DNA from: Maribacter sp. | Lineage (GTDB): Bacteria; Bacteroidota; Bacteroidia; Flavobacteriales; Flavobacteriaceae | NCBI RefSeq assembly: GCF_016744255.1 | Contig: NZ_JADGES010000002.1 | Coordinates: 54,047 to 118,046 of the forward strand | DNA: 64,000 bases | Direction: 5' to 3' | Shown here: positions 25,894 through 46,300 of the stretch, piece by piece | Position numbering within the stretch: the first letter of the stretch is position 1 | Layout of the letters: each line of letters begins with the position of its first letter | Made by a program: the position numbers and the translations under genes | Notes under the pieces: model-generated | The model's database searches: none | Told to the model about the DNA's origin: nothing | What the model saw: the letters and a program-made list of their open reading frames with translations, nothing else

Positions 25894-25954
25894 TGGTTTT
25901 ATTTTTATTAGTCACCCTAAACTTAACCAATAGTGTAGATTAATACAACAATAT

Positions 25955-27412
25955 TTAGTATTTGGTTTTTTTGCCCGTGGCATTCATGGCTATAGCTTTC
26001 TTAAACACAAAATTTCTAGGTATTTTATATAACGAAAGTTTCTTGGCGCAGTACTCCAGAATTTGTGCTTTCATAGCATCTTCCTTATCGTCTTTATTAA
26101 TTACAACAATAGCCTGTAACGCTTCCCCTTGTACCTCATCTATTACTCCAACAATACTACAATCTATAACACCAGGCACCTCTAAAACTACTGCTTCTAT
26201 TTCCTTAGGACTTACTCTTTTTCCTCCAACTTTTAAAATTGCCTTTTTTCTGTCTACTAAATAAATAAAATCCTCTTCATCTTTTTTAGCAATATCTCCT
26301 GTATACAGCCACCCATCTACCAATGTTTCTTCCGTAGCTTTATTATCTTTATAATAACCAAGCATAATATTATCTCCTTTGGCTATTAATTCCCCTTCTT
26401 TATTTACAGCTACTTCCATTCCTTTTTCATCGACGATTTTCAATTCTACATTGGGAATAGCCTTACCTATAGATTTTATTTTACTTGGTAGATTTTCTGG
26501 AGCTAAATATGACAAACGCGCAGTGGCTTCTGTTTGTCCATACATTATGTAAAAATTTATCTCTGGAAAAGCATTTGTAAATTCATCGATAAAATTACTA
26601 TGCAATTTACCTCCTGCTTGGGTAACATATTTTAAATACGGAAATTTAGTATCTTTAAAGGTTTTCGATTTTTTTAATAAAATTTGAAAGTGACTTGGAA
26701 CCCCTGCAAAACCGGTACATTTATATTTCTGCATATCGGATATTACAGTGCCTAGAAAAATAAAATTATTATTCAAAACAATAGAACCTCCGACTTTTAA
26801 ATGGGTATGTAAAAGAGACAAACCGTAGCAATAAAAGAAAGGTAAAACAACACACATAACATCTTTAGAAGTAAGTTTTAAATACCCAAGAATAGATTCT
26901 GTGTTTGTTATTATATTTTTATGAGACAACATTACTCCTTTAGGTAAACCTGTTGACCCAGAAGTAAATATTATTTCTGCAACTTTGTTACTATCTAAAA
27001 AAGCATCAAAATTAATTACTTTTTGCTCTTGTATAATCTGCTCTACATCCTCCTCTACCAGACAATTTTCTAAGGATTGATTCAACTTTTTAGCCAATGC
27101 TTTTGTTGTAACTACTAAACTACAGTTTGTAGAACCTAAAACATACTCCAAGGTTGCTTGTTCAACACCGTAATTAAGAGGAATACAAATATTTCCTGAT
27201 TTTAAAATTGCTAAATACGCTGTTATAAAAAAAGTAGAATTGGGAGCAATTAATACTATAGCCTTCTCTTTGCCAACACTTTCTTTAAAATAAGATGCAA
27301 CTTTTAAACTATTGGCATATAATTCTGAAAAAGAGATTGCCTCTTTAGACCCTAGAACAAATTCTTTTTCTAGATTTTTAGAACCGCTAAAGAGGTAATC
27401 AAAAACATTCAT
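25955..27412 (-). CDS. Acyl-CoA/acyl-ACP synthetase-like AMP-binding ligase
   Basis: IIFTSGSTGLPKGVMLSHKNI, YGQTEATARLSYL, YLVDRKKAILKVGGKRVSPKEIE. Confidence 0.88.
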   Translation of the reverse strand: MNVFDYLFSGSKNLEKEFVLGSKEAISFSELYANSLKVASYFKESVGKEKAIVLIAPNSTFFITAYLAILKSGNICIPLNYGVEQATLEYVLGSTNCSLVVTTKALAKKLNQSLENCLVEEDVEQIIQEQKVINFDAFLDSNKVAEIIFTSGSTGLPKGVMLSHKNIITNTESILGYLKLTSKDVMCVVLPFFYCYGLSLLHTHLKVGGSIVLNNNFIFLGTVISDMQKYKCTGFAGVPSHFQILLKKSKTFKDTKFPYLKYVTQAGGKLHSNFIDEFTNAFPEINFYIMYGQTEATARLSYLAPENLPSKIKSIGKAIPNVELKIVDEKGMEVAVNKEGELIAKGDNIMLGYYKDNKATEETLVDGWLYTGDIAKKDEEDFIYLVDRKKAILKVGGKRVSPKEIEAVVLEVPGVIDCSIVGVIDEVQGEALQAIVVINKDDKEDAMKAQILEYCAKKLSLYKIPRNFVFKKAIAMNATGKKTKY

Positions 27413-27427
27413 AATTCTCTGTTTATC

Positions 27428-28408
27428 CTAAAAAATAGGCTTCATTCTTAAATACTCTGTTGTTTTCTGTTTACGAACAAAACTCTTAAAAATATTCTCA
27501 ATTTCAGGAGTAGACCTTTCCATTACTTTCCCTACTTCTTCTGCGGAATATTGGTTTTCCCAACCATACCATATTAAATCCATTTCTTTAAAAGGCATCT
27601 GATAAAAGAAATCTTCTTGGGTTTGTTCTGCAGTATATGTATCCGTGGTTGGTGTTCTACTAATAATTTCTTTGGGAACACCTAAATACTCGGCCAACTG
27701 ATATACTTGCGTTTTATATAAATGACCAATAGGCATAACATCTGCTCCTCCGTCTCCGTACTTTACAAAAAAGCCTTGTTCTACTTCGTGCTTATTTGGT
27801 GTTCCTATAACCGCATAATGCATTCTTTCTGCATGATAGTATAACATAGACATTCTACTTCTTTGCTTAAAATTTGTTGCTGCAACAATTTGTAAATACT
27901 CCTTTGCTGGTAATAATTTACTAACTACTTCTCCATCTGGTCTAATTACGGTAATCGAAAAAACGGCTGGAATATTATCCGCAATATTCTGTTTTATTTC
28001 AATTTTTGCTTTATCTGCTTTTGGATTAAAATCTTTTATTACTCTCCCAATTGCTTCATCTCTTCTTTCATAGCAATTAAACCCACGTAATGCTCCTGTA
28101 ATATTTTCTTCTAAAGTAACGACCCCAAAAGTATCCGCTAATTCTAATGCCAACATTTTACTATCATCACTAGAATCTTGCTCTGGGAGCATAATACCTA
28201 ACACCTTTTTTGGGCCAAATGCCTTTGCCGATAATGCCAACACTACAGAAGAATCTATACCTCCGCTAATACCAACAATAGCCCCTCTACGTTGTAAATT
28301 TGCTCCTACATCTTCTTGTAACTTTTTTATAATATCGTTACAAAGATTCTCTATATCCTTTATTACTAAAATGTCTTTAGAAAAAGGTTCTTTTATCATT
28401 GTTTCCAT
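27428..28408 (-). CDS. NadE-like NAD(+) synthase family protein (PP-loop, no nitrilase domain)
   Basis: GAIVGISGGIDSSVVLALSAKAFGPKKVLGIMLPEQDSS; GTPNKHEVEQGFFVKYGDGGADVMPIGHLYKTQVY; function in this operon uncertain. Confidence 0.8.
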   Translation of the reverse strand: METMIKEPFSKDILVIKDIENLCNDIIKKLQEDVGANLQRRGAIVGISGGIDSSVVLALSAKAFGPKKVLGIMLPEQDSSDDSKMLALELADTFGVVTLEENITGALRGFNCYERRDEAIGRVIKDFNPKADKAKIEIKQNIADNIPAVFSITVIRPDGEVVSKLLPAKEYLQIVAATNFKQRSRMSMLYYHAERMHYAVIGTPNKHEVEQGFFVKYGDGGADVMPIGHLYKTQVYQLAEYLGVPKEIISRTPTTDTYTAEQTQEDFFYQMPFKEMDLIWYGWENQYSAEEVGKVMERSTPEIENIFKSFVRKQKTTEYLRMKPIF

Positions 28409-28426
28409 AAAACTTATTTTTTTCTA

Positions 28427-30403
28427 CTATTGAATTATTACTTTATCTAATTGCAATATATCTTTATCTTCTATAGATCCCCGTGACCTTTTTATAAAAG
28501 TATCGTATACTATTTGAGTAGATAAAATACCTGTAATTGCCATATTATCTATTTCGGATACCGGATGATTAGACCTCATTTTCTTTAACAGGTTACCCAC
28601 ATGGTTCTCGTTAAACAATCCAAATTCTTTTATCTTCTCTACCTCTAAAAGACTTTTTAAATATAAGGGTAAGCCTTCTTGCGCAAAGGCAGATCTAATA
28701 GGTGACCTATACGCCTGTTTTGGTCTATTACGTATCTCTTCTGGTAGTTTACCTTTCATCATCTTCTTTAAAAGATACTTTTCGTTAAGTCCTTTTAATT
28801 TATATTCTGATGGTAATTGCATACAAAAATCTATAATTCTATGGTCTAGAAAAGGGTATCTTCCTTCAATAGAATGAGCCATAGCCATGCGATCCCCTTG
28901 CGATGACAGCAAGTACCCAGACATAAAAAGACACATTTCTAGCCATTGAGCTTTACTTAGAGAATCTACATTGTTTAGTTTTTTTACTAGCTCCTTCTCG
29001 AGTCTATCAATAGGGTCATTCCCTTTTATTTTATCTTTTATTTTTTGCGATAAATAACTAGTTATATGCGCTGTATTATGCCAGCGTAATACATGGGAGT
29101 AAATCGGAGATTTAACATCGGATAATTTATACCCAAAAAACAACTTTAACGCTGTAATATTTACACTTTTCATCCATGGGAGATAAGGATACAGTTTTTT
29201 TAAAAGTAATGGCCTTAAATTAGAAGTAGGGTCTTTAGACCAGAATTTTCTAATTTTAGATTCTTTAAATATATTATACCCTCCACAAATTTCATCTGCG
29301 CCTTCCCCTGTAACTACTACCTTAATGTTGTTTTTTTGTACTAGCCCAGCTAGTAAATTCATTGGCGCAGGAGACGTTCTTAAAATAGGAGCTTCTGTAT
29401 GCCAAATGACATCCGGAAAAACTCGCGCTATATCTTTATAACTACTTTTTATACTGGCGTGGCTTGTTTTAAAATAGTCTACAGCTATTTGCTGATAGTC
29501 CGACTCATCAAACTCCTTTTCATTAAAACCTATTGAAAAAGTTTTTAATTTATTCGTAGAAACTTCTTTTATCGTGGCAGTAATAATACTAGAATCTAGT
29601 CCTCCGCTTAAATATGCTGCAACGGGAACATCTGCTCGTAACCTTATACGCACAGCATCTTTAAAAATAGCATCTAGTTTTTCTGATGCTTCTTCTAGAC
29701 TTCCTTTAAACTGTCTTTTGGGTGTATAGATTGGCACCTTCCAATATCTAGATTCTTTGATTCCACCTGAATTTACAATTAGACTATGCCCTGGTTTTAA
29801 TTCATAAACATCTTTAAATAGGGTATGTGGAGGAATGGCTGTCCAAAACGTAAAATACTCTTGAAGGGCTTTAGATGAAATCTTTAAATTTAACTCTGGG
29901 TATTCTAAAAAAGCTTTTATTTCTGATGCAAAAACGAAAGCTCCATTTACCTGGGTATAAAAAAATGGACGAATCCCAACTCTATCTCTGGCTAAAAACA
30001 ATTCCTCCTTAATAGTATCCCATATAGCAATTGCAAACTGACCATTTAATTGGCTGATAAAATCTGGACCGTATTCTTGATACAAATGCACAATAACCTC
30101 CGTATCACTAGTAGTTTTAAAAGTATGCCCTTTTTGTACTAATTCTTCTTTTAATTCTGGGTGATTAAATATTTCTCCATTAAAAACAATCCATAGAGAC
30201 TCCTCTTCATTAGATAAAGGCATTGTACCTGTTTCTAAATCGACTATGCTTAACCTTACACTGCCTAAACCAATTTTATTAGATAAATAAACCCCACTTT
30301 GGTCTGGTCCTCTATGCTTAATTCTAGTAAGCATTTTGGTGAGAATATTTAAGCGTGTATCCTTGCTGTCGCTACATTGGTAAAAACCTGCGATACCACA
30401 CAT
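28427..30403 (-). CDS. Asparagine synthase (glutamine-hydrolysing)-like amidotransferase
   Basis: MCGIAGFYQC N-terminal nucleophile Cys, PVAAYLSGGLDSSIITA. Confidence 0.88.
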   Translation of the reverse strand: MCGIAGFYQCSDSKDTRLNILTKMLTRIKHRGPDQSGVYLSNKIGLGSVRLSIVDLETGTMPLSNEEESLWIVFNGEIFNHPELKEELVQKGHTFKTTSDTEVIVHLYQEYGPDFISQLNGQFAIAIWDTIKEELFLARDRVGIRPFFYTQVNGAFVFASEIKAFLEYPELNLKISSKALQEYFTFWTAIPPHTLFKDVYELKPGHSLIVNSGGIKESRYWKVPIYTPKRQFKGSLEEASEKLDAIFKDAVRIRLRADVPVAAYLSGGLDSSIITATIKEVSTNKLKTFSIGFNEKEFDESDYQQIAVDYFKTSHASIKSSYKDIARVFPDVIWHTEAPILRTSPAPMNLLAGLVQKNNIKVVVTGEGADEICGGYNIFKESKIRKFWSKDPTSNLRPLLLKKLYPYLPWMKSVNITALKLFFGYKLSDVKSPIYSHVLRWHNTAHITSYLSQKIKDKIKGNDPIDRLEKELVKKLNNVDSLSKAQWLEMCLFMSGYLLSSQGDRMAMAHSIEGRYPFLDHRIIDFCMQLPSEYKLKGLNEKYLLKKMMKGKLPEEIRNRPKQAYRSPIRSAFAQEGLPLYLKSLLEVEKIKEFGLFNENHVGNLLKKMRSNHPVSEIDNMAITGILSTQIVYDTFIKRSRGSIEDKDILQLDKVIIQ

Positions 30404-30423
30404 AAGCTATTTATATCTATGAG

Positions 30424-30681
30424 TTATTCCTTGCCGACTTTACTCTCAATAAAATCTGAGATACTATCAATAGATTTAAAATTATCTACTACCAATTCGG
30501 CATCATTAGTCTCTATACTAAACTCTTCTTTAATATACTCTATAAGGAATAATAACCCCATAGAATCTAATAATCCGGCTTCGAAAATTAAGGTGTTATC
30601 TTGGATATCTTCTGTATCTCCAAAGGTCGATTCTATAATGTATTCTCTAATTTTATCTCTTGTTTCTGTTGTTGTAATCAT
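30424..30681 (-). CDS. Acyl carrier protein
   Basis: LIFEAGLLDSMGLLFLIEYIKEEFSIE with DSM phosphopantetheine site. Confidence 0.85.
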   Translation of the reverse strand: MITTTETRDKIREYIIESTFGDTEDIQDNTLIFEAGLLDSMGLLFLIEYIKEEFSIETNDAELVVDNFKSIDSISDFIESKVGKE

Positions 30682-31282
30682 AATCTGGGACGTTTTGGTT
30701 TTTAGTTAATAAATCTATTTTTTGGGTAAGTAGGTTTTTGGATCTATTTGTTAATTTTTTAATGGGGTTTCCGTAGTATATCGTCCATGACTTTAAGTTA
30801 GTAGAAACTACGGCAAGGGCACCAATAGCAACTCCTTCTTCTATAGTTACATTTGGTAGAATTACACTGCCTGCACCAACTATAACGTGTTCTTGTATTA
30901 ATACTTTACCTTTTTTATAATTTTTATATTTATTAGGGGTTGTTGGGTTTGTTAAAGTATTCCCTGAGTAATCATCTGTTTTACTATAAATTTTGACTCC
31001 TTGAGACAGTCCACTAAAATCTTGAATTTCTATCCCATCGGTAGCCAACAAATGACTAAAAGAACCAATATGAACATAAGAACCTATATTTAAAAATCCT
31101 TGTTCCGTAATAATAAAAGAACAGTGCTCATCAATAATTACATTACTTCCAATAGACAAATTAGTAATACCTACAATGGTACAATTCTTTGCAACCTTTA
31201 CATTTTTACCCACTTCTTTTACTCCAAAAGATTTTAAATCTTCTTCGGTATAATAGTCCGTAATAAAAGGGTTTTTAGTCAT
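30653..31282 (-). CDS. Left-handed beta-helix (hexapeptide) acyltransferase
   Basis: Hexapeptide repeats: VIVGAGSVILPNVTIEEGVAIGALAVV, IYYGNPIKKL; start at MTKNPF preferred. Confidence 0.85.
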   Translation of the reverse strand: MTKNPFITDYYTEEDLKSFGVKEVGKNVKVAKNCTIVGITNLSIGSNVIIDEHCSFIITEQGFLNIGSYVHIGSFSHLLATDGIEIQDFSGLSQGVKIYSKTDDYSGNTLTNPTTPNKYKNYKKGKVLIQEHVIVGAGSVILPNVTIEEGVAIGALAVVSTNLKSWTIYYGNPIKKLTNRSKNLLTQKIDLLTKNQNVPDYDYNNRNKR

Positions 31283-31310
31283 GGATTTAATTTGAAAAAT
31301 TAAACACCGC

Positions 31311-31355
31311 AACAACAAAATAAAAGAATTATTAAAATCCTCTTATTTTGTTGTT
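31311..31355. repeat. Inverted repeat with 13-bp arms in leader of acyltransferase operon
   Basis: aacaacaaaataa ... ttattttgttgtt, about 19-nt spacer, about 29 nt upstream of start codon. Confidence 0.75.
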
Positions 31356-31400
31356 TTGAATTTAAAATAACAAGATAAAGTTATGGTTTTACGCCCCTCA

Positions 31401-31424
31401 ATTAAATGATATATATCATTTAAT
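31401..31424. promoter_or_regulatory. 24-bp perfect palindrome, candidate operator
   Basis: attaaatgatat|atatcatttaat. Confidence 0.6.
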
Positions 31425-31452
31425 ACCAGTAAATAACATTTTTATTTAAAAC

Positions 31453-31490
31453 AAAAAAGTCCCTGTATTAGTAAAACACAAGGACTTTTT
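31453..31490 (-). terminator. Terminator between Pel-like operon and acyl/amide operon
   Basis: aaaaagtccctgt-attagtaaa-acacaaggacttttt. Confidence 0.7.
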
Positions 31491-31569
31491 AAAAAGAGTA
31501 AATTACAATTACTTCATAAAAACAAGAAATAACATAGTATCTTAAATTTCACTATTTAATACGACAGGT

Positions 31570-34500
31570 TTATTTAAAATTATACGATAATCCAAATTGA
31601 ATAACATTAGAAAAGAAGTTCTTTATTGTGTAAAACTCATAGCCTGCATTTATTTTAGTAAAGTCCGTTATTTTATAAGACATGTTCCCTGTATATCTCT
31701 CGAAATTAGGCTCGTCTTTCTCCATAAACATTCCAAAATCAGCAGTTAAGTTAAACTTGCTTTTCTCTGAACCTAAAACAACCAAAGCACCAGCACCTGC
31801 GTATACTCTTTCTTTAGCCATCCAATAAGGATAGCCAGATTTACGATCTGTACTCCCTATTCCTGCAGCTCCCTCGATTAATGGTAAAAACTTAAGTTTA
31901 TCTAAACCTATAAGTTTATATTCTAATCTACCCAATAGCATATGGTCATTCTCTTTGTCTGTATAATAGTTAGATTCTAAAGACAATATTGGTTTAATTT
32001 GTTTCCCAATAGCCATTTCTTTATAGCCCGTAAACTGAATTCTATAGATACCTAAAGAATGTCCTGGTCCAGACATCACCGGAAAGGCATCTAATTGAAA
32101 GGCCGTAAAATTCTTTTTCTTAGAATAGTTAACTCCTGCACTTCCCTGAAAAAAGAAATCCCCAAAATTATCTCTTTCTACTCGTCCTCTCAGAGCATAC
32201 TTATATTTTTTATTAGACTTATTGGTAAACCCATATTCTAATCCCATTAAGTCATGTCCAATATTTTCATTATTTGATGGAAAACCATTCAATTTAAACA
32301 TAGTGCTTTGCGTAACGGAAAAACTATGCATGTTTCCATTGGCATTGTGGGTATTGTAATTTACAATATTAGATAATACGGTTGGCTTTAATTTATCGTT
32401 AATACTAAAAGACCCAAAGCTTATAGACGACCCTCTTTCTTGCCTCATCTTTTTGGCTATTTGTTCCCCAATTTCTAGATCTAACAAATCGCCATATTGC
32501 CTAAATATTTCCACTTGCTCTTTAAGCTCTAGATTTTTAACTTCTTTGTTTAGTGCTCTCTTGTATTTTTCATTAATTTTTTCACTAGGAACACTAAATG
32601 CTACTTTTGCAGATTCTTTTACTTCCCCTTCATAAAGCAATAACGTTGCCATAAATAAACGTATTTCATGGTCTTTAGAATTTCTAGCGATATATCTCGT
32701 AAACGTACTTTTTAGTCCCGAAATATCTTTTACTTCATAAAGCCAAGACATTTTATCTTTTATAGTAATTTCGTCGGTACATTCTGCCCATTCCAACGCT
32801 TTTTTATAATTACCATAATCGGCATAAGTTTTAGCAATTTTTGTTGCTAAATGTTTTAATTCTTTAGAACAACTTTTGTTACTCTTAAGCTCTTGTGTTG
32901 CTTTTTTAGGGTTATTCGCTAACAATAAAGCTATATAGTATGGGAAATTTTTCTTTTTCATCTTTTCGAAATTCGAAGAGCTCATTGTCCAAAAATCGAT
33001 TGTTTCCTGATCTATATTACTTGCGCATTTCTGCCATTCTAAAGCCTTACTGAATCTTAAATTATCTGCAAAAGTCCAAGCGATTATCGTTGCTAATTCT
33101 TTATAATCTTTATCACATGGATTTAAAACCAAAAGTTCTTCCACTAAATCTTCATAATCATTATCTATTAAGTGATTTATATAAAGTTTAGAGTTTTTAG
33201 AATTTGGCTGTATAGTTACTAATTTTTTTAATACTTCTCTAATCTGTTTATGGTTTGGTTTTGTGTTAAAATAATCTACGTACTCTGATAAAACATTAAT
33301 GTCTTTAGATTTCCATTCTATTTGTCTGGTAAGCCATACTTTACGTTCTGCATCATTAGGGTACCCTACTATGTCATTAACTTTCCTAGAAATGTCTGCA
33401 TTATTTTTGGACTTAAATCTTAAGTAGTAGCTATTTAGCTCTTTCCAAACTTTATTTTCTCTTTTCTGCCATGCCATGTATTCGGCATATTCCAACCATA
33501 TATCGGAGCTTGCATTAGGGTTCGTTTTAAAATTTTCTTCGATTAAATCTGTTGCCTTATTTAATTCTCCATCGACTACATACCTATTCACTAAATCGGC
33601 CATTGGAGTCATTAATTTTTTATTTTTTAAATACAGCTCATAATCTTTAGTTACCACTGATAATACTACATTGTTAGGTTTATAAACAGCTCTCGATTTA
33701 CCGAATAAATCAGGAACAGAAATAGATGAATTTCCTGATTTTATCGAGTATAAAAAACCATCTAACATAGCTGTTTTCTTAATTTTTAGTTCCTCTTCAG
33801 TTAACAAATCATCTACTAGAGGAACATTAGCCTCATCTACGTACATTAACCAAAAATTACTCTTTTCTTTATTTCTGGCATTACTACTTTCTACCTCATA
33901 CATTCCATCAAAATTAGAATGCCTATAATAAGCATAGCGCCAATCCATAGTGCGTTCTGCTGCCTTACTAGCATTTAAAAACCTTGAAAAAGGGTGGTCC
34001 CTTTTGTACTCAGAAATATGATCATTAAAAGTATCGTACATCCCTTTTTTACCATTTTTAGAATACCAGTTTAGTTTGTGCTTATTTCTATAACTAAAAT
34101 GACCACTAGTCAACGCATTAGATTTATCAGGGATTTGATATACATCATCTGGGTGCACAAAATGTGTCCATACTCCCGTACACAAATACATAGACTCTAT
34201 AGCCCAAATATTAGCGGTTTCTAAAACATAACCACTACTTATTCTAGGGAAATCGAAAAACTTGTCATTATACGGGTCTGGCCCAAATTCTCTATCACCA
34301 CCTTCTTCTAATGTCCCTAAATAAACACTTTGCAAATACTTAATACTTGGTATTCCTTTGTTTAATTTAACCAAACCAATACTATCTATATAATTTGATG
34401 GAGGTACGTAGGATACGGGTAAGTTTTTAAAATCTAATACTTTCCATTTTTTTTCAGCAGCATCTAAGGCGGTAACCATATATTCTGGGTTCTTCCAATC

Positions 34501-35574
34501 TTCCTTTAATAGCGAAACATGGTTATATCCATGAAAACCAAGTTCATGCCCATTTTTAATAACATCCCTACCAATCCAACTGCTTAATTTTTGCAATGAG
34601 CCTTCTTTAGTAACCGTATTCCTATCCCATTCTGTAAAAGTAAAAGGTGGAACAACAACCGCGTTATAATCGAAAGTAACATAAGCTGTATATTCTATAT
34701 TTTGCTTTAGTGCTAGTTTTTTCATATCGGGCCACCAGACGTCTTTTACGTAATCTGTTACCGTAATATTTAGTTCTGACTTAATTGGTTCCTTATAAAT
34801 ATTATATGTTGGTGAAGGAAAATCATCTAAAAAGATAGTAGCTACATTAGCAATAGGATAAGGAATACCTTCTAAACCTTTAAGAATGCTAGAGAACATA
34901 AATCCACGCATACTCTTGTTCAATAGAGTAGATGAATTAAAAAACATTACCCTTCCTTTACCTATTTTATTTTCTAATAACACAGGGTAATCAGTATTGT
35001 TTGTAGCACTAATTAAAACTTGAGTGTTATCGGAAAAATTACGCCCACTAAATCCTAAATGAAGACCCCCATCATTATACTTAAAACCTTGTTTCCCCGG
35101 AAAAACAGGAGACTTAAAACTATATCCTTGTGCTGTTTTATTTGTTTCCCAATTGGCATCTGGGTTAAGGCCTATTAAAAATGCTATTCTTTCATCTTTA
35201 ATTGCTTTCGTTACATATAAAGTACCTCCTTTTGCTACAAAATTTAAAATAGCCTTTAAAGCTAGTTTATTTAAAGGAGCTGTTTCATATATACATAAAA
35301 CTCTTGTTGTTGGAGCTATTTCTTGATTCTCATTAAAATCATTTATAAAAATATTTTTGTATGGTATTTTAGTATATTCTAGTGCCTTATTTAAATTTTT
35401 ACTTTCTAAGATATTACTATACTCATTTTTACTAACCAAAAATTGAACAAGGGGTAGTTCCCTACTCTTTTCTGGCATACTAAATTCGTGTGTAAATCTA
35501 TAAATATCTCTTTGGCATCCTAATAGAAAGCCCACCAAAATGGTTAGAAAGCCAAGCTTTATTTTATTGATCAT
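31570..35574 (-). CDS. PelA/PelB-like fusion: DUF2194 (polysaccharide-deacetylase-like) + helical/TPR-like repeats + C-terminal outer-membrane beta-barrel
   Basis: Lipobox LLGC; NodB-like FLDDFPS and HELGFHGYNH (HxxxH); middle helical repeats (FSKALEWQKC..., YKKALEWAEC...); final ~285 aa amphipathic beta-strands ending IQFGLSYNFK. Confidence 0.7.
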   Translation of the reverse strand: MINKIKLGFLTILVGFLLGCQRDIYRFTHEFSMPEKSRELPLVQFLVSKNEYSNILESKNLNKALEYTKIPYKNIFINDFNENQEIAPTTRVLCIYETAPLNKLALKAILNFVAKGGTLYVTKAIKDERIAFLIGLNPDANWETNKTAQGYSFKSPVFPGKQGFKYNDGGLHLGFSGRNFSDNTQVLISATNNTDYPVLLENKIGKGRVMFFNSSTLLNKSMRGFMFSSILKGLEGIPYPIANVATIFLDDFPSPTYNIYKEPIKSELNITVTDYVKDVWWPDMKKLALKQNIEYTAYVTFDYNAVVVPPFTFTEWDRNTVTKEGSLQKLSSWIGRDVIKNGHELGFHGYNHVSLLKEDWKNPEYMVTALDAAEKKWKVLDFKNLPVSYVPPSNYIDSIGLVKLNKGIPSIKYLQSVYLGTLEEGGDREFGPDPYNDKFFDFPRISSGYVLETANIWAIESMYLCTGVWTHFVHPDDVYQIPDKSNALTSGHFSYRNKHKLNWYSKNGKKGMYDTFNDHISEYKRDHPFSRFLNASKAAERTMDWRYAYYRHSNFDGMYEVESSNARNKEKSNFWLMYVDEANVPLVDDLLTEEELKIKKTAMLDGFLYSIKSGNSSISVPDLFGKSRAVYKPNNVVLSVVTKDYELYLKNKKLMTPMADLVNRYVVDGELNKATDLIEENFKTNPNASSDIWLEYAEYMAWQKRENKVWKELNSYYLRFKSKNNADISRKVNDIVGYPNDAERKVWLTRQIEWKSKDINVLSEYVDYFNTKPNHKQIREVLKKLVTIQPNSKNSKLYINHLIDNDYEDLVEELLVLNPCDKDYKELATIIAWTFADNLRFSKALEWQKCASNIDQETIDFWTMSSSNFEKMKKKNFPYYIALLLANNPKKATQELKSNKSCSKELKHLATKIAKTYADYGNYKKALEWAECTDEITIKDKMSWLYEVKDISGLKSTFTRYIARNSKDHEIRLFMATLLLYEGEVKESAKVAFSVPSEKINEKYKRALNKEVKNLELKEQVEIFRQYGDLLDLEIGEQIAKKMRQERGSSISFGSFSINDKLKPTVLSNIVNYNTHNANGNMHSFSVTQSTMFKLNGFPSNNENIGHDLMGLEYGFTNKSNKKYKYALRGRVERDNFGDFFFQGSAGVNYSKKKNFTAFQLDAFPVMSGPGHSLGIYRIQFTGYKEMAIGKQIKPILSLESNYYTDKENDHMLLGRLEYKLIGLDKLKFLPLIEGAAGIGSTDRKSGYPYWMAKERVYAGAGALVVLGSEKSKFNLTADFGMFMEKDEPNFERYTGNMSYKITDFTKINAGYEFYTIKNFFSNVIQFGLSYNFK

Positions 35575-37550
35575 AAATCAAAAATTAAATCATTTAATCT
35601 AGAAGCATTTTCCTTATTTACGATTTCGTAAACGGTTAAAAAATTATCTTCAAAATATACTTTTACCTTTCGCCCTCTATTTTTTAGAATATCTATTTGA
35701 TATTCTATTTGAATAGCTGTTTCTTTTTTAATCTTAAAGTTTTTATCCTTAGAATTTACATTGTTTTTGGGCACAAAAACAAAAACACTATTTGGTAATA
35801 TATTACCAGAATTCTTTTTCATTAATTCCTCATCTCCCTTGATGGTTTGATAGATAGAATCTTGTTTAGCATATGCGCTTGTAAAAATATTATAATTAAT
35901 AAAATGATGTTCGCTCTTCCCTATGCTCTGTCCATAATTTTGATTTACCACAGCATAAGAGTATGGTAAATAATTACTAGACAAATCATTATAAATTAAA
36001 AGAATATCGGTTTTAAGCTCATCTGTCTTTTCAAAATTATACTTAGAAAAACTATTGGTAAAATACGATGCTAATACTAATAAAGTGAATACAGATGCTA
36101 TACTTATAGCCTTTGACTTTCGATTTTTAGGGATAGAGATTCTAAAATAGCTTATTACAATACCACAAAATACACCCATTAGAATAACAATTAATACGGA
36201 AAGAATTTGATAATATAAATCTACATCAATCCAAGGCCATTCTAACCATTTTAAAGCTATCACCATGTTTAAAAAAACAATAAAAACCATTGCTGGAGTC
36301 CATTTTTCTTTGTCCTTTACAAATAATGGTATTAATCCCAAAAGCGTAATTACGCCAAGGATTGCATATACTAATACCAAATTATCTATGGTTATAACCA
36401 ATTGTGGAAAATACGTATACACATCTACCAATATCATACTTTCCTTTATAAAAGTAACAAAAGAAGTATCTAATAACCAACATGCTATTGCATGTATTGT
36501 CATTACCAAAATAGTTGCCAATAAATAACTAAGCATGCTTCTTAAAATATATGGCAGTCCTTTTTTTGTAAAAAACAACAATGCTATAATTAAAAAAAGA
36601 GGCATAATGATAACACCAACAAATAAACTAACAAAAGCCAATGCAGTATAAATAACAAATAATGTTATAAAATATTTACGTTTATCTGTACTAAGTAATT
36701 GAGGTATAACCGTAAAAAGCATCGCAGGAAATGCAAACCAAACAGCCATATACAAAGCATTGTGCTCCAATAAAAGGTTTATGTTTATCGGAAGGTACTT
36801 ATAGAAAAAACCAAAGAATAAAACACCAATCATTGGCGCTAAAAACTTTGAGTTCGTAATCTTTACTAATACCCAATACATAACTAAGCTAACCCCAAAC
36901 GTTTCTAATAGGCCAAAAGAATGAACTGCCATTTCTTCGCTTATACCTGTAATTTTACTGTAAAAATTAATAATAGCGTTTTCTCCTAGCAATGTAAATC
37001 CAGGGCTAAACCAAATATTTTCATTAAAATTTTTGACAAATTCTAGATTCTGAATCCATAAACCAGAAAGTGTATATAGGTCATTTTTTAAGAAAAGATA
37101 TCTAGAAATAAAGCAAGCCGATGATACTGCAAAAGCAGTAACAACCATAAAATTTATCTTTTTAGGAAGAAAAAAATTGATGGTTTTTTTAAATTGTTTA
37201 GAAAAATTTGGTTTCTCTTCCATAAACCTAAAGAAGGTAAGTAAAAAGGCTTTCCGTTTTTTCTGTATTTGGCTAGCAGAATTTCTTAAACTTCCTAAAT
37301 CTAAATACAGAAAAAATAACAACCCAAAAAACAAGGATATTAAAGAAAAAACATCATACATTTTTAACTGCACCAACACAAAAACCAATAGTAATATAAT
37401 ACTTCCAAATATAATAGAACGCTTAATTACATAATCTAAATTGTATGTCTTAATTGGCTGCCGTGTAACTATTTGGTGCACCACCAGAACTCCCAGAAAA
37501 AGAAGAAAAATTCTAAAAGGCCCTAAAAGTATATTATCTAGAAATACCAT
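35571..37550 (-). CDS. Polytopic membrane protein of Pel-like locus (possible GT-C-like fold), with C-terminal extracytoplasmic domain
   Basis: About 10+ hydrophobic segments; 4-nt overlap with downstream DUF2194 gene. Confidence 0.6.
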   Translation of the reverse strand: MVFLDNILLGPFRIFLLFLGVLVVHQIVTRQPIKTYNLDYVIKRSIIFGSIILLLVFVLVQLKMYDVFSLISLFFGLLFFLYLDLGSLRNSASQIQKKRKAFLLTFFRFMEEKPNFSKQFKKTINFFLPKKINFMVVTAFAVSSACFISRYLFLKNDLYTLSGLWIQNLEFVKNFNENIWFSPGFTLLGENAIINFYSKITGISEEMAVHSFGLLETFGVSLVMYWVLVKITNSKFLAPMIGVLFFGFFYKYLPININLLLEHNALYMAVWFAFPAMLFTVIPQLLSTDKRKYFITLFVIYTALAFVSLFVGVIIMPLFLIIALLFFTKKGLPYILRSMLSYLLATILVMTIHAIACWLLDTSFVTFIKESMILVDVYTYFPQLVITIDNLVLVYAILGVITLLGLIPLFVKDKEKWTPAMVFIVFLNMVIALKWLEWPWIDVDLYYQILSVLIVILMGVFCGIVISYFRISIPKNRKSKAISIASVFTLLVLASYFTNSFSKYNFEKTDELKTDILLIYNDLSSNYLPYSYAVVNQNYGQSIGKSEHHFINYNIFTSAYAKQDSIYQTIKGDEELMKKNSGNILPNSVFVFVPKNNVNSKDKNFKIKKETAIQIEYQIDILKNRGRKVKVYFEDNFLTVYEIVNKENASRLNDLIFDL

Positions 37551-37555
37551 TTAAA

Positions 37556-38365
37556 CTACATTTTAAATTTTGGAATAGACTGTAAATCTATTTGTGCAAC
37601 AAATGCTGAAAAACCAAGTTTTAGACTCTCTTGTAGAATCTTTTTTTTCATTTTAGCTGTTTCTGCATATTCAATAACATAAATTGGCCTTGTGGTTTTT
37701 TTTCTTGCCAATTTTAAGCTTTTAACCATTTCTTTTTTAGTATTTACATCTCGTAAGGCATACTCTTTCTTCTTAAAATCATAGGCACTTATAACAGACT
37801 CTACAACAATAGCATCTGTAATCTTCTTAAGTTCATTAGTTATAAAAAGACCTGCATTCTGAACCAAATAAAGCTCTTCATTATCCTTTTTAATTTTATT
37901 TAAAAATGTAATAAATTCATCCTTTTGATCGTGTAATTTTCCCCATTTAGATACATTATCTAGGTTATCTAAAAACAATCCTTGGATTCCTTTTTGTTTT
38001 ATTCTACTAATTACTTTTAGTAAAATCTCTTGGGCTTTTTTGTCTTTAATATTTATAAAATGACTATTCCAAATATCATTTTTTCCTAAAGTAAAAGGCT
38101 CTATATGTCTATAAAAAGAAACGTATTCGTTAGCTTCTGATAAACTTATATAAGCGACTACTTTTTTATTATTCTTGTTAAAAATTTCTATTTCAGAAGA
38201 AGTATAATGTTCCGATTCTATAACAACTAATTCATACCCCTTTATTAATTCTGGATCTACTTTACCATAACAAACAAAGAGCTTGTCTACCAAGGTGTCC
38301 TTAGGCTGTAATTGAGATATACCTAGAAATGGCAATAAAAGGTATATTATATTAATAGGCCGCAT
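37556..38365 (-). CDS. GH114/GH166-like (PelA hydrolase-like) secreted protein
   Basis: ELVVIESEHY, KVVAYISLSEANEY, IQGLFLDNLDN, YLVQNAG; TIM-barrel TM1410-type motifs. Confidence 0.7.
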   Translation of the reverse strand: MRPINIIYLLLPFLGISQLQPKDTLVDKLFVCYGKVDPELIKGYELVVIESEHYTSSEIEIFNKNNKKVVAYISLSEANEYVSFYRHIEPFTLGKNDIWNSHFINIKDKKAQEILLKVISRIKQKGIQGLFLDNLDNVSKWGKLHDQKDEFITFLNKIKKDNEELYLVQNAGLFITNELKKITDAIVVESVISAYDFKKKEYALRDVNTKKEMVKSLKLARKKTTRPIYVIEYAETAKMKKKILQESLKLGFSAFVAQIDLQSIPKFKM

Positions 38366-39959
38366 AATAATGGTAATCTAGTTTTTTAAAGAAAATAATA
38401 ATTTCTCTTAAAGTTAAAATCATAAACAATCCTGCTCCTACCAACATACCAACAACGCTATACTCATAGCTTATTGTTCTAGATAAGATAAAACCTACAA
38501 CCAAATTAACTAAGCAAGCAATTATTATAGAACGTAATGGTCCTTTTGGGCTATCTAATGTGAACAAATACAAAGAATTAAGCATTCCCCATGTAAGTAA
38601 CAAATAACCAATACCACCAAGAACACAAACCTTGATACTTATAAAGTCTAGAGTTTCTCCAAAATTAGCTTCATAACCCCAAGGTTGGGTAATTAATAAA
38701 TAGATAAATGTGGTAGTTACTAATGCTGTAAGGATGAGCAATGAGATATGTCCTAGATACATTCTAAAAAGACTTTTATTAAAAACCTTCTTATTAATCA
38801 ATAATGTATTTCGTTGTTTTATATCTAGAAACTTGCTAAAAGATGCAATAGCATACTCTAATACTCCTGCTAGCATAAAAAATATGAGAATTGCAATATC
38901 CATCCCTATTTCATAATCTTTCTCATATAAAAATATAAACTGATGTGTTAAATCTATATCAGCAGACCAAGCTAAAAATCTATCCATAAAAATAAAAACA
39001 TATATAAGGGTACCGTAAAAGAAATACCTATAGTTTTTATAAATAACCATTAACTTCTTTGGTCTCAAATTTTCTGCAGTATAAAAGCCCTTTTTTCTAT
39101 TAAAAAAGAATTCTAAAAATAGTTTAGAAACTATAATAGCCACTCCAATGCCTGCCCAATGTGTAACATAAGTATTTGTGTTAGTATATAATTTAAGGAA
39201 CAACGCAATCGCTGTAGCAAGGAGTATTGCTAATGAAATAACCCAGCGCTGTCTTATGGTATGAAAAGGTGCCGACACTAAGAGTAGCAACCCTATTAAA
39301 AAAGCATACACACATGTAATTAGTATAAAAGAAAAAGGGTATAGATTAAACAGGAAATTTACGGCAGCAATACTTAAAAATGTTAATAGTAAACCCTTAA
39401 TTCCGGATTTAATTAACTTATTGACTACCATTTTGGCTTTCTTAAACTCTTGGTGGTGCCAATAAAAGGATGCTTGCCTCCCTAATACCTGAACATACCC
39501 TCCGGAAACAATTAAACCAATTATAACTCCAAAAACTACAGATGTAGATTGTACAATATTGAATCCTATAAAAGCCCATAAAGAATATCCAAAAACAATT
39601 ATAGATGCTATTTGTAAAAAAATAGGGAGTAGATGAAATATCCCTAAAGGATAAAACTGCACTAACAGCTTTGTTTTCATCCATAAATAGCTAGATACTG
39701 GAACTAGCGCATTTTTTTTCTTTGCCTTTCTTAATTCACTTTCGTTTTTTAATGTGTCTGTGTTTCTTCCTTTTAAATCTTTAAATACGTGCTTGGCCAA
39801 ATCGGAAAGGGAAACAAACCCGTAATCTTCAAAAACGTCTTTATCTCTAATCCCGAAAGATTCTAATGTCGCCAAAACGACCATTACACTAACTGGATTA
39901 CCAATTTTATGGATTACCAATTCTGTTATACTTTCAATATTTTCTTGAATATTTTTCAT
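38352..39959 (-). CDS. PelG-like MOP-superfamily membrane protein
   Basis: Approx. 12 TM segments after ~100-aa cytoplasmic N-terminus; GGYVQVLGRQASFYWHHQEFKKA; adjacent to pelF-like gene. Confidence 0.6.
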   Translation of the reverse strand: MKNIQENIESITELVIHKIGNPVSVMVVLATLESFGIRDKDVFEDYGFVSLSDLAKHVFKDLKGRNTDTLKNESELRKAKKKNALVPVSSYLWMKTKLLVQFYPLGIFHLLPIFLQIASIIVFGYSLWAFIGFNIVQSTSVVFGVIIGLIVSGGYVQVLGRQASFYWHHQEFKKAKMVVNKLIKSGIKGLLLTFLSIAAVNFLFNLYPFSFILITCVYAFLIGLLLLVSAPFHTIRQRWVISLAILLATAIALFLKLYTNTNTYVTHWAGIGVAIIVSKLFLEFFFNRKKGFYTAENLRPKKLMVIYKNYRYFFYGTLIYVFIFMDRFLAWSADIDLTHQFIFLYEKDYEIGMDIAILIFFMLAGVLEYAIASFSKFLDIKQRNTLLINKKVFNKSLFRMYLGHISLLILTALVTTTFIYLLITQPWGYEANFGETLDFISIKVCVLGGIGYLLLTWGMLNSLYLFTLDSPKGPLRSIIIACLVNLVVGFILSRTISYEYSVVGMLVGAGLFMILTLREIIIFFKKLDYHYYAAY

Positions 39960-39994
39960 GTAATGAGAGGACAGCCTTCGCTTCCGTACGGATA

Positions 39995-41512
39995 CTAAAT
40001 TGTTTGATTTTCTATTAAACTCGTAGTTTTAACACTTAAATTTTGGTATGTTTTTTCAAAAGAATTTATAAAGGTTTCTATAGTAAAATTTTCTAATACT
40101 TTCTGGCGGGCATTCTCACCCATCCCTTTTCTTAGTTTTTCATTATGCAAAAGTTTTATCACATTTTGTGCTATTTCTTTATGGTCTTTAGGTTTGCAAA
40201 CTAAACCACAGGTATCATCTATTGCTTCTGTAACCCCTCCTACATCTGTAGCAACTACAGGTATTCCGGAGCTCATAGATTCTATTACGGTAAAAGGGAA
40301 TCCTTCTGAAATAGAGGTTAGTATAGATATATCTCCTTCGGAATAAATTAACTCTGGCTTATTATGAAATCCTTTTAAAAAGAAATTATTTTCTAGCTTT
40401 AATTCTTTTATTAATTCTTCACATTCTATCGTGTATTCTGGTACTGCATCTTTGTTACCATATATTAAATACTGCACATTGGGTATTGTTTTTACCACTT
40501 CATTGCAAGATTTAATCATGGTTAAAATATCTTTTAAATCGAAAATTCTTGCAGCTGCAACAACAGTTGGAATATTTTTTAAGTGTTCTGGTTTTGGTCT
40601 TGGAATAAATACGTTTTCATCCACTCCATTATAAATAACTTCTATTTTTGATAGTTCTGCTCCATAAAATTTTTCCCACGACATATTGAATTTACTAACC
40701 GTGCTAATTTTTGACGCATGCGAATAAACCAATTTTGTAATACATTCTGAAAAATTAATAAGCATTTTTTTTAAGAAATAAGAATAGTCGGCAGCGCTAA
40801 TAGCAATTAAACGTTCTCTGATAAAAACACCATGTTCTGTTACTAAAATTGGCGTATTGTATTTATATTTTAATACTAAAGCAGGAATAACCGCTATTCC
40901 AGAAATTGTAATATGAGAAATATCCATTTTAGGAACCTCTATGGCCATTGGAATAAGAAAACGATAAATCCAACGCATAGCTGTCGTCATATCTTCCAAG
41001 GATATTACATTTAACTCTTCTGGGGGCAATACTTGCGACACAACGTCACAGAAAGTATACCAGACTGCTTCGCTGGTCATTGTAGTTTTATAATCATATT
41101 TCTGAAAAAAACGCCACATTTTATAGAAACTGGCATTTACATTTTCTAAAGATTGATTTTCAGAATATATTTCTTCGATAAATGATTTAAAATTTGGAAC
41201 AAAAGAGCTTGTAATAATATCGTCTGATGTAAACTCTCTTGCCTTGAGTATTGCAGAGTATTTTATATTATAATCTACACAATCAAAAGGTTCTTCTGGA
41301 GACCACATTGGAACCTGTATGATATTTTTTACATTTTTACTTAGTGGGTATTTAGGGGTTACTTCTACGCCTGCGTTAATAGAATATAATGTAAAATCAA
41401 TACCCCTTGTCTTAGTGCACAAATCATGAGCCCATGTAGAAACTCCTCCTCCGCTATAAGGGTATGTGCCTTCCGTAATAAGAAGCACATTAATATTATT
41501 GGTTAGTGTCAT
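39995..41512 (-). CDS. pelF: PelF-like GT4 glycosyltransferase
   Basis: LLITEGTYPYSGGGVSTWAHDLC (DUF3492-like N-terminus) and SEGFPFTVIESMSSGIPVVATDVGGVTEAI. Confidence 0.85.
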   Translation of the reverse strand: MTLTNNINVLLITEGTYPYSGGGVSTWAHDLCTKTRGIDFTLYSINAGVEVTPKYPLSKNVKNIIQVPMWSPEEPFDCVDYNIKYSAILKAREFTSDDIITSSFVPNFKSFIEEIYSENQSLENVNASFYKMWRFFQKYDYKTTMTSEAVWYTFCDVVSQVLPPEELNVISLEDMTTAMRWIYRFLIPMAIEVPKMDISHITISGIAVIPALVLKYKYNTPILVTEHGVFIRERLIAISAADYSYFLKKMLINFSECITKLVYSHASKISTVSKFNMSWEKFYGAELSKIEVIYNGVDENVFIPRPKPEHLKNIPTVVAAARIFDLKDILTMIKSCNEVVKTIPNVQYLIYGNKDAVPEYTIECEELIKELKLENNFFLKGFHNKPELIYSEGDISILTSISEGFPFTVIESMSSGIPVVATDVGGVTEAIDDTCGLVCKPKDHKEIAQNVIKLLHNEKLRKGMGENARQKVLENFTIETFINSFEKTYQNLSVKTTSLIENQTI

Positions 41513-41650
41513 GTTGTTTTTTTCCTCTTACTATTTTTGGCAAAACAAAGCCAAAGAAAATATATAAAACTGATATGCCAGTTTATTTTGGCTAAAGCAT
41601 GGGAATTAATCTACAAAAGGCATATACATTACCCTTATCGATAAAACACT

Positions 41651-42670
41651 CTATTCATCATAGTTCTCAAAATACTCAAAGGCGTCTATAATATCTAGAT
41701 AAACACCATCAAACCCCGTAGAAAGAATCTTATCTAGGTAAGCGTCTTCACTTCCATAAATAACATTTTGCCAGTCTTTTTCCCAATAGCGAACTTTATA
41801 ATTTCCTTCCCAATTTTTATTCTCTTTATCTAACCAAACTGGGGCATTAGTCTTCCAATCACTATTCCAATAATATCTATAGTCCTCTGCTTCGCCTATA
41901 GACATGTAGCACATAACCAATCTTTGCCCTCCATCGGGTTTGGTTTTTAGCTCTTCAATAGAAAGTCTTGAAAATGGCGTTCCATCATTAAAAAACATAT
42001 CTAAAAAAACCACATCGTAATTAGAATTTCCTATTTCGGTTAATAAGTCATTTTTAGTATCATAATCTTCGTAATTAAGAATAAATAAAAAATTCTCTGC
42101 ATCACTCAGTGAAGACACATCCCGACTACTCAATTTATTAAAAGTTGTAGGCGTTGGGGGTATTAATGTTAAATCTCTTTCTGTTGCTACAAAAGGTGTA
42201 AAATTTAGGGCATAATTTTGCTCATAGGAATTCGTTATTTTTTTGCTTGAGGAGCAGTAATCAATCACAAAAATAGAATTATTATAATTTTGAGACACTT
42301 GCAATAAGCTTACATTATAATCTGTTACCTCCTGTGTTGTTGCTACATTATCTTTTTTATAGCCATAAAACAAGTTTTCTTGTCCATTCCCATCTATAGC
42401 CTCCAAGTAACTTTCACTTGGAGCTCCATCTGCTGTACCTGTTTCTGTTACTAATTCAATTCCGTTTTGGGGTATTATAGAAAAATCTGGATTTACTCCT
42501 TTAGCGTGTTTACTTAAACCAATTACAAAAGAGCGCATATCTTCTCTAAAGTCTCTACTCTCTAGCCGAGGAATAGCATTTTGTTCTAAATCCGTTGTGC
42601 TTGTGCCTTTATTATTCTCACAACCAGTATTCAAAAAAAATAAAAACAAAAATAACTTTATAAAACCCAT
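41651..42670 (-). CDS. GH114-like lipoprotein (endo-alpha-1,4-polygalactosaminidase family)
   Basis: Lipobox LNTGC; NYDVVFLDMFF, RLVMCYMSIGEAEDYRYYW, FDGVYLDIIDAFEYF. Confidence 0.78.
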   Translation of the reverse strand: MGFIKLFLFLFFLNTGCENNKGTSTTDLEQNAIPRLESRDFREDMRSFVIGLSKHAKGVNPDFSIIPQNGIELVTETGTADGAPSESYLEAIDGNGQENLFYGYKKDNVATTQEVTDYNVSLLQVSQNYNNSIFVIDYCSSSKKITNSYEQNYALNFTPFVATERDLTLIPPTPTTFNKLSSRDVSSLSDAENFLFILNYEDYDTKNDLLTEIGNSNYDVVFLDMFFNDGTPFSRLSIEELKTKPDGGQRLVMCYMSIGEAEDYRYYWNSDWKTNAPVWLDKENKNWEGNYKVRYWEKDWQNVIYGSEDAYLDKILSTGFDGVYLDIIDAFEYFENYDE

Positions 42671-43300: not shown

Positions 43301-46300
43301 ATGCTTTCACACATTATTAGTTTTAGCCTTAAGAATAAGCTTATTATTCTGTTATTTACGGTTTTTGTAATAAGTTTTGGTTTCTATTCCTTAACCCAAA
43401 TCTCTATTGGTGCGGTACCCGATGTTACCAATAATCAGGTACAGGTAATAACCACTTCCCGAAACTTATCTACCCAAGATATGGAACAGTTTATTACATA
43501 TCCTGTAGAATTAGAAATGGCCAATTTACCAGGCGTAGAAGAAATACGTTCTATATCTAAATTTGGCCTTTCTGTCGTTACTGTTGTCTTTAAAGATAAT
43601 ATGGGCACTTTTTTACCTAGACAGCTTCTTGCGGAAAAAATAAAATCGGCTTCCGAAAAAATCCCGGAAGGGTTTGGAACTCCAGAAATGGGCCCTATAA
43701 CTACAGGCTTAGGAGAAATATACCAATATATTTTAGATGTTAAACCCGGTTATGAAGATAAATATGATGCTTCCGATTTAAGAACCATACAAGATTGGGT
43801 TGTTAAAAGGCAGCTTTCTGGAATCCCTGGTGTTGTTGAAGTAAATACTTGGGGTGGTTTTCTAAAACAATACGAAGTAGCAATTAATACGCAGAAACTA
43901 AATGCTATGGGTATTACAACGCAAAATATTTTTACAGCACTAGAAACTAATAATAGTATTGCAGGAGGTGGTTATATTGAAAAAACAAATCAAGCCTATT
44001 TTATACGAGCTGAAGGTTTAATTACCAATTTAGAGGATATAAAAAACATAGTTATTACATCTAAAAATGGACTTCCAGTTTACGTTAAAGACGTTGCCAC
44101 CGTAGGTTTTGGAAGTGCCAATCGTTTTGGAGCTATTACAGGAAATGGAGAAGGAGAAAAAGTTCTTGGCCAAGTAATGATGCTTAAAGATGCAAACTCC
44201 AAAAAAGTGATTGATGCTGTAAAAGAAAGAGTAGAATCTATTTCTAGTTCTTTACCAGAAGGTGTTTACATCAATGCTTTCTTAGACAGAAGCGAACTTA
44301 TTGCAAAAACAACCTTTACCGTAACCGAAAACCTAATTCTTGGTTGTCTCATCGTAATTTTTGTGGTAGTTCTTTTATTAGGGAACTTACGTTCTGGTTT
44401 GGTTGTAGCATCTGTTATTCCATTATGTTTACTTTTTGCTTTATCCTTAATGTACATCTTTGGAGTCGATGCCAATTTAATGAGTTTAGGCGCTATAGAT
44501 TTTGGAATAATCATAGATGGCGCAGTAATAATAGTAGAATTTATTGCCTTCCAAATAACCTCCAAAAAAGAAGAATTAGAACTATTATCTAAGGATAATC
44601 TACAAAAGGTTAAAGATGAAATCACCTTAAACAGCTCCTCCAAGATGATGAATTCTGCCATTTTCGGACAGCTTATCATTTTAATAGTCTTTATTCCTAT
44701 ACTTTCTCTAACTGGTGTGGAAGGGAAAATGTTTAAACCAATGGCATTAACCTTTAGTTTTGCTTTAATCGGCGCCATGATTTTCTGTTTTACCTACGTT
44801 CCTGTTGCTGCTTCCATCTTCTTAAAACCAACAAATATCAATTCTAAAAATCCTTCTATTAGGCTAATGAATTGGGTTTATAAAATATACGCCCCAATAA
44901 TTGACTGGGCATTAAATAAGAAAAAAACTGTTTTAGGTATTGCTTCTGCACTATTAGTTATGACTATTATTCTTTTTTCATCCATGGGCGGAGAATTTGT
45001 TCCTACTCTAGATGAAGGCGATTTTGTAATTCAGCCTGTTCTTAAAACAGGAACCTCTCTAAGCAAGACTGTAGAAACCACAACCCAAATAGAAAAAATA
45101 CTATTAAATAATTTTCCTGAAGTAAAACAAGTGGTCTCTAGAATAGGCGCTGCTGAAGTTCCTACGGATCCCATGTCTATGGAAGAAAGTGATGTAATCA
45201 TAACACTTAAACCTAAAAAAGAGTGGACCTCAGCTAGCTCCAAAGATGAGTTAGCAAATAAATTTAAAGAAGCACTGGCAATCCTTCCTGGTATGGAAGT
45301 AGAATTTACGCAACCTATAGAAATGCGGTTCAATGAACTTATAACAGGTGTTAGAGCAGATATTGCTATTAAAATCTTTGGAGAAGATTTAAATGTTCTT
45401 AGCCAAAAAGGAAATGAGCTTAAATCTTTAATAGAAAATGTAGAAGGCGCAGCAGATATCTCCGTAGAAAAAATTATTGGCCTTCCACAAATGAAGGTAA
45501 AATATGATCGGGCTAAAATTGCTCGTTACGGATTAAATATAAAAGATCTAAACGAAATGGTATCCATGGGTTTTGCTGGTCGTATAGTTGGTAATGTCTA
45601 TGAAGGAGAGAAAAGGTTTGATCTTGTAGTTCGTCTAGAAAAACAAAATAGAAAAAGCATTACTAATCTTAAAAACCTCTATGTTGATCTTCCTAATGGG
45701 GGTAAAACCCCCTTAAATGAGTTGGCAAGTATCACCTACGAAAAAGGCGCTGCCAAAATCTCTAGGGATGATACACGAAGAAGAATAGTAGTAGGTATAA
45801 ATGTTAGAGATAGAGACTTGCAATCCGTTGTCGACGATGTGCAACTTATTGTAAAAGAAAAAATTAAACTCCCTGTAGGATACAACATAACCTATGGTGG
45901 CCAATTCCAAAATTTACAAAGTGCAACTTCCAGATTACTATTAGCCGTTCCGGTAGCATTAATCTTAATTTTTGTGCTTCTATATTTTGCATTTAAATCT
46001 GCAAAAGAAGCTTTAATCATCTATTCTGCCATTCCCCTTTCAGCTGTTGGCGGTGTACTCCTACTTTGGATAAGAGATTTACCTTTTAGTATATCGGCAG
46101 GTGTAGGTTTTATAGCTCTATTTGGTATTGCTGTATTAAACGGAATAGTATTAATTGAACATTTTAAAGAACTAAAAAAGCAAAAATTCGAAAGCATGGA
46201 GGCATTAGTAAAACAAGGTACAAAAGACAGATTAAGGGCTGTTTTATTAACTGCCCTAGCAGCAGCATTCGGGTTTCTACCGATGGCCATCTCTACCAAT

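Follow-up and report, generated by a model that had tools for sequence, protein, structure and literature searches.

The five genes analyzed here raise two questions: what they make together, and whether their product belongs to the Pel-like polysaccharide locus beside which they lie. They are part of a stretch of 64,000 nucleotides from a Maribacter genome, the whole of which is referred to as the window. The original prediction read them as an operon that activates a carboxylate, amidates it and transfers the resulting acyl group, possibly to decorate a GalN-type polymer of the neighbouring locus or to build a separate small molecule.

Layout and distribution of the cassette

The predicted gene content and positions were confirmed: all five open reading frames are encoded on the minus strand, and domain searches back the family of each. 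They comprise an AntD-like LbetaH acyltransferase of 209 aa (30653..31282, Hexapep family match), a stand-alone acyl/aminoacyl carrier protein (ACP) of 85 aa (30424..30681, PP-binding over cut-off, with the attachment motif DSMG and S40), an AsnB-like glutamine-dependent amidotransferase of 658 aa (28427..30403, GATase_7 and Asn_synthase), a NadE-like ATP-pyrophosphatase of 326 aa (27428..28408, NAD_synthase, subfamily NF002048/PRK00876) and an AMP-forming acyl ligase of 485 aa (25955..27412, AMP-binding and AMP-binding_C). The spacing is as compact as had been claimed, with an overlap of 29 nt between the LbetaH and ACP genes, followed by gaps of 20, 18 and 15 nt. The LbetaH gene starts with the ATG at 31282, and since its homologues, including the orthologues, begin at this same position, a longer version from the TTG at 31318 is unlikely. 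Directly upstream of this start lies a very stable leader hairpin with 20-bp arms (31311-31355, minus strand, fold z -4.9), for which no Rfam match was obtained. It was rejected as a shared regulator, since 13 of 15 relatives have no comparable hairpin before their LbetaH gene, and those of the other two are unrelated in sequence.

To determine how widespread the gene set is, one genome per species was scanned, which delivered 214 relatives of the NadE-like protein, and the best 80 of these 214 loci were inspected together with flanks of up to 10 kb. These best 80 loci are labelled Bacteroidota, except for one unplaced bin and one Chlorobiota bin. In nearly all of them the AsnB and ligase genes adjoin the NadE-like gene, and the ACP gene usually does so as well. 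Of 56 scored loci, 49 retain the order ACP-AsnB-NadE-ligase, which puts the arrangement far beyond chance. Proteins over the NF002048 cut-off are rare and patchily distributed (2 of 395 Bacteroidia, 11 of 400 genomes of the host family, 1 of 8 in the host genus). Plasmids of Sinorhizobium meliloti, Mesorhizobium, Nitratireductor, Shinella and Azospirillum carry operons of these four genes in other orders, and the NadE subfamily also occurs in a Methanosarcina control genome. A function in anti-phage defence was considered and rejected: PADLOC matched none of the five proteins and no relative was present in viral contigs. Matches to phages were weak (<32% identity), and the annotated ones are labelled NAD synthetase.

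The putative amidation pair and its partner proteins

The AsnB-like protein reaches 523 bits with TIGR01536 (cut-off 267). It retains the Cys2 start of the glutaminase as well as the synthetase motifs SGGLDSS and TGEGADE, which are near-invariant among 72 homologues, and its closest solved structure is the hydroxyamidotransferase 7ylz, with AsnB next. The NadE-like protein exceeds the cut-offs of both NF002048 (422 against 313 bits) and TIGR00552 (167 against 63.65 bits), and its predicted model adopts the NAD synthetase fold, with 2e18, 1xng and the NMN synthetase 3fiu as best matches. If 87 members of this subfamily are compared with 27 canonical NadE proteins, the ATP-site motifs are kept, while TGNK is changed to TPNK and a large family-specific insert is present. 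Missing as well are the nicotinate-side residues of canonical NadE, where PTDGL..D.R.DED is replaced by PT.DTY...Q.QE.F. The simplest reading of these sequences is that the enzyme would take an acid other than that of canonical NadE.

The two enzymes appear to be linked in their evolution. Distances among AsnB proteins and among NadE proteins correlate with a Mantel value of 0.89, whereas each correlates with the ligase at only 0.55-0.61, and the former value suggests that the two enzymes act together. Of the three large core genes, that of the ligase shows the lowest conservation. We infer that the AsnB and NadE proteins may represent the constant chemistry of the cassette, and the loaded acid its variable part. 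Furthermore, six Bacteroidota loci have variant cassettes that include a PrmC-type N5-glutamine methyltransferase, and such an enzyme is also encoded next to a Mesorhizobium cassette. The substrate of PrmC is the side-chain amide of glutamine, which hints at a carboxamide in the cassette product, yet is no proof of it.

With regard to the ligase, the closest models are PRK06187 and the XrtA ligase model TIGR03098, both below cut-off; some loci encode, near NadE, a ligase that shares only 27-29% identity with that of the window and lies nearer to the XrtA ligase model. The closest solved structures of the ACP are PltL, PigG and DltC-type carrier proteins, and its DSMG motif is present in 53 of 57 homologues. 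Two more small carrier proteins were observed outside the window, about 11 kb apart on one contig (G000:C28:16158 and 26907), and possibly belong to another acyl-carrier pathway.

Among solved structures, PDB 3vbi and its variants come closest to the LbetaH protein, with 44% identity over 179 aa (E 1e-45; profile E 3e-59). We take the entries 3vbi-3vbp, which carry the PDB label 'Galactoside O-acetyltransferase', to be AntD, the dTDP-anthrose N-acyltransferase of Bacillus cereus. According to the citation of Kubiak and Holden (2012) in PMC8141488, AntD is an N-acyltransferase of D-anthrose biosynthesis. The deposited variants alter one Ser (to Ala, Thr or Cys) and one Asp (to Asn), and in the window's LbetaH the aligned residues are S93, which is invariant among 15 orthologues, and D103, which is conserved in at least 90% of them. 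Homology to AntD thus covers the full length of the protein and includes both probed active-site residues. Against an amino sugar as acceptor counts that members of the LbetaH fold use many acceptors.

An LbetaH orthologue is encoded directly before the ACP in many flavobacterial cassettes. Among 28 flavobacterial loci, LbetaH is present in 13 and a protein of 220-270 aa with predicted GNAT fold in nine, while none contains both (hypergeometric 7e-4, with shared ancestry ignored). Such mutual exclusion is expected of interchangeable transferases. Other loci encode FemAB-like proteins (three loci) or DltB-like MBOAT proteins. The rhizobial operons lack LbetaH, and several of them possess a family of about 360 aa instead (L129, L130, L133 and L134), which has no Pfam or NCBIfam match, shows no relation to the Azospirillum GNAT in BLASTP and is possibly an acyltransferase. 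Judged from gene content, the pattern appears to be that of one acyl donor module combined with swappable terminal transferases.

Candidate products and the adjacent Pel-like locus

Carboxylate activation, amidation and acyl transfer, as originally predicted, are consistent with the gene content, in which an acid-activating ligase and its dedicated carrier protein are joined by ATP-dependent amidation enzymes and by the LbetaH transferase. Our main reading, to which we assign a probability of roughly 55%, is that the cassette constitutes a portable acyl-ACP module with amidation, which N-acylates a 4-amino sugar of a surface glycan and has spread horizontally. As to chemistry and order of steps, the AMP ligase would adenylate a carboxylic acid and load it onto the dedicated ACP. 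Two ATP-dependent amide bonds would be made on this acid or its precursor, one by the AsnB-like enzyme at the expense of glutamine, the other by the NadE-like enzyme from ammonia or an amine, resulting in an acyl-ACP that bears a carboxamide. From this donor, the AntD-like LbetaH protein would then acylate a nucleotide-linked 4-amino-4,6-dideoxy sugar at its free amino group, and the acylated sugar would enter a surface polysaccharide or glycoprotein whose synthesis is encoded elsewhere in the genome. A more far-reaching version is a tentative possibility. It holds that AsnB and the NF002048 NadE-like protein form a two-enzyme amidation unit, which together with ligase and ACP would make a new class of carboxamide acyl decorations on surface sugars, with an N-methyl carboxamide in variants through the PrmC-like methyltransferases; Bacteroidota and Alphaproteobacteria would share one portable module with a swappable terminal LbetaH, GNAT, FemAB or MBOAT protein.

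The genomic neighbourhood supports a link to polysaccharides in general. Of 49 cassette loci whose flanks were complete, 28 have a polysaccharide marker, versus 1 of 40 other 20-kb windows of Bacteroidia genomes (Fisher p 9e-9), with identical profiles and thresholds employed for both. As caveats to this comparison, the loci share ancestry, cassette loci served as seeds for the profiles, and the spacing of the control windows was chosen by hand. Among flavobacterial cassettes, the type found in the window, the tie is weaker (markers in 7 of 23). The cassette of Flavihumibacter soli is adjoined by FdtA-like proteins and a DegT aminotransferase, and that of another locus (L103) by a WecE-type transaminase. 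Against the main reading, the islet in the window is not adjacent to nucleotide-sugar genes; in its favour, the source genome provides for 4-amino sugars, with a PseC over cut-off. At L178 (G000:C178), we observed the pseudaminic-acid genes PseB and PseC, both over cut-off, a cytidylyltransferase-like gene and an apparent PseA-type amidotransferase.

Widespread occurrence without any polysaccharide locus had been named as an argument against the original prediction, and it applies in part: 21 of the 49 loci lack a marker within about 10 kb, while the class as a whole is still enriched near polysaccharide genes. These 21 loci favour an alternative that we consider rather doubtful, namely that the cassette makes a diffusible small molecule such as an amidated acyl or peptide-like metabolite, with LbetaH or GNAT performing the final acylation. 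The same alternative is favoured by the four genes standing alone in S. meliloti pSymB and several Mesorhizobium plasmids, and by the resemblance of the ACP to PltL and PigG, which are carriers of small-molecule pathways. However, the strong enrichment of polysaccharide genes argues against it, as do the similarity of the window's LbetaH to a nucleotide-sugar N-acyltransferase as its nearest relative and the lack of an exporter, a resistance gene or a regulator within the cassette block.

We consider it improbable that the cassette decorates the GalN-type polymer of the adjacent Pel-like locus, which encodes PelF, a PelG-like protein, GH114, a membrane protein and DUF2194 (31570..41512, minus strand). 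In the window both are adjacent on the same strand, amino groups would be available on GalN residues, and the cassette class tends to sit near polysaccharide loci. However, the pairing was seen nowhere else. A neighbourhood survey for co-occurrence with PelF and DUF2194, as the original prediction had proposed, found it in 0 of 80 loci (the best 80 of 214) and in 0 of 33 genomes. Among these best 80 of 214 loci, no homologues of DUF2194, GH114, the PelG-like protein or the membrane protein were detected, and PelF matches were partial glycosyltransferase matches of low identity; DUF2194 is over cut-off in none of the 33 named cassette genomes. Four Bacteroidia genomes have DUF2194 over cut-off, and only that of the window possesses the cassette, while the three others lack it. 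Cassette and Pel-like locus thus do not travel together.

In representatives of two other genera of the family (G392 and G375) and in the congeners G817, G819 and G820, the Pel-like locus is found in the same place and directly followed by the gene of an S9 peptidase. The gap between DUF2194 and peptidase comprises about 100 bp in G392, 72 bp in G375 and 81 bp in G819, whereas it measures 5.7 kb in the window. The DUF2194 protein of G819 is 84% identical, and the alignment picks up again at the peptidase promoter region, which is conserved. This empty site in relatives (72-100 bp versus 5.7 kb) demonstrates that the cassette is an inserted islet. It extends from the DUF2194 stop to the peptidase start (25894..31569), a span that includes the ancestral promoter region of about 40 bp before the peptidase start. 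No convincing direct repeats flank the insertion, and no base-composition signature was found, the islet having 32.5% G+C, equal to the window. While the cassette does lie just downstream of the Pel-like operon, as had been stated, a hairpin resembling an intrinsic terminator (31454..31490, minus strand; AAAAAGTCCTTGTG..TACAGGGACTTTTT, then a T-rich tail) separates it from DUF2194. Most likely, the cassette has its own transcription unit, and its position next to the Pel-like genes appears to be due to chance insertion. In addition, AntD-type enzymes act on nucleotide-linked 4-amino-6-deoxy sugars and are not known to act on polymers, which also counts against decoration of the Pel-like product.

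The Pel-like locus has features of its own over 31570-42670 (minus strand). Its DUF2194 protein carries a long C-terminal extension and two GH114-type proteins are encoded; among relatives, DUF2194 and the membrane protein diverge faster than PelF and PelG, and the position of the locus is conserved. At 43301-47632 (plus strand) the window contains an ORF of 1443 aa whose sequence resembles a fusion of a CusA-type RND pump with a C-terminal TolC-like outer-membrane factor.

Service in asparagine or NAD synthesis only, which would have spoken against the original prediction, is not indicated: the source genome carries canonical NadE and AsnB genes elsewhere, and thus the cassette genes are unneeded for bulk synthesis of either compound. 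Least probable of all is that the pair are redundant NAD and asparagine synthases that were carried along: both do exceed the generic cut-offs (TIGR00552 and TIGR01536), yet canonical copies are already present, the nicotinate-side loop and TGNK of the NadE-like protein are replaced and a large insert is added, and the pair co-varies and stays with ACP and ligase across phyla.

Comparison with known systems and significance

The cassette has features in common with several known systems and also differs from each of them. Its link to AntD consists in the 44% identity of LbetaH and in the conservation of the two residues, Ser and Asp, that the deposited variants change. However, the acyl donor of AntD is acyl-CoA, whereas the cassette encodes a dedicated ACP and, alongside it, ligase, AsnB and NadE-like genes. 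D-alanylation by the Dlt system (ligase DltA, carrier DltC and the MBOAT protein DltB) likewise employs a ligase and a small carrier to supply an activated acyl group, and DltB-like MBOAT proteins are encoded near some cassette loci. In contrast, the cassette ACP scores 24 bits against a DltC cut-off of 68, DltB and DltD are absent among the cassette genes, and Dlt has no counterpart of the AsnB and NadE-like genes. The ligase TIGR03098 and the amidotransferase TIGR03108 of the XrtA/PEP-CTERM system belong to the same two enzyme families, which in that system also occur in exopolysaccharide loci. However, the cassette proteins remain below cut-off (300 of 592 bits for TIGR03098 and 456 of 817 bits for TIGR03108), and the NadE-like and LbetaH genes fall outside the matched model set.

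Similar conclusions apply to the single enzymes. NH3-dependent NadE and the Francisella NMN synthetase (3fiu) share fold and ATP site with the NadE-like subfamily, while the latter differs in its substrate loop, its insert, its operon partners and its rare and patchy occurrence. The NAGGN amidotransferase AsnO (TIGR03104) is also an AsnB-like enzyme that amidates a small acid, but at 375 bits the cassette protein is below the cut-off of 570, and no partners of the NAGGN pathway are found among the cassette genes. In the literature searched, which covered few subscription journals, no published account of the gene set was found. Its novelty is consequently provisional: the constituent families are known, while their combination is apparently undescribed.

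Taken together, the database names NAD(+) synthase, asparagine synthase and acyl-CoA ligase mask a conserved mobile pathway behind housekeeping labels, and this pathway spans Bacteroidota, rhizobia, including S. meliloti with its pSymB, and Azospirillum. The genetically tractable S. meliloti offers a compact set of four genes for direct tests of the chemistry. If the cassette indeed places a new acyl group on surface glycans, this would bear on the variation of the cell surface toward phages, hosts and predators.
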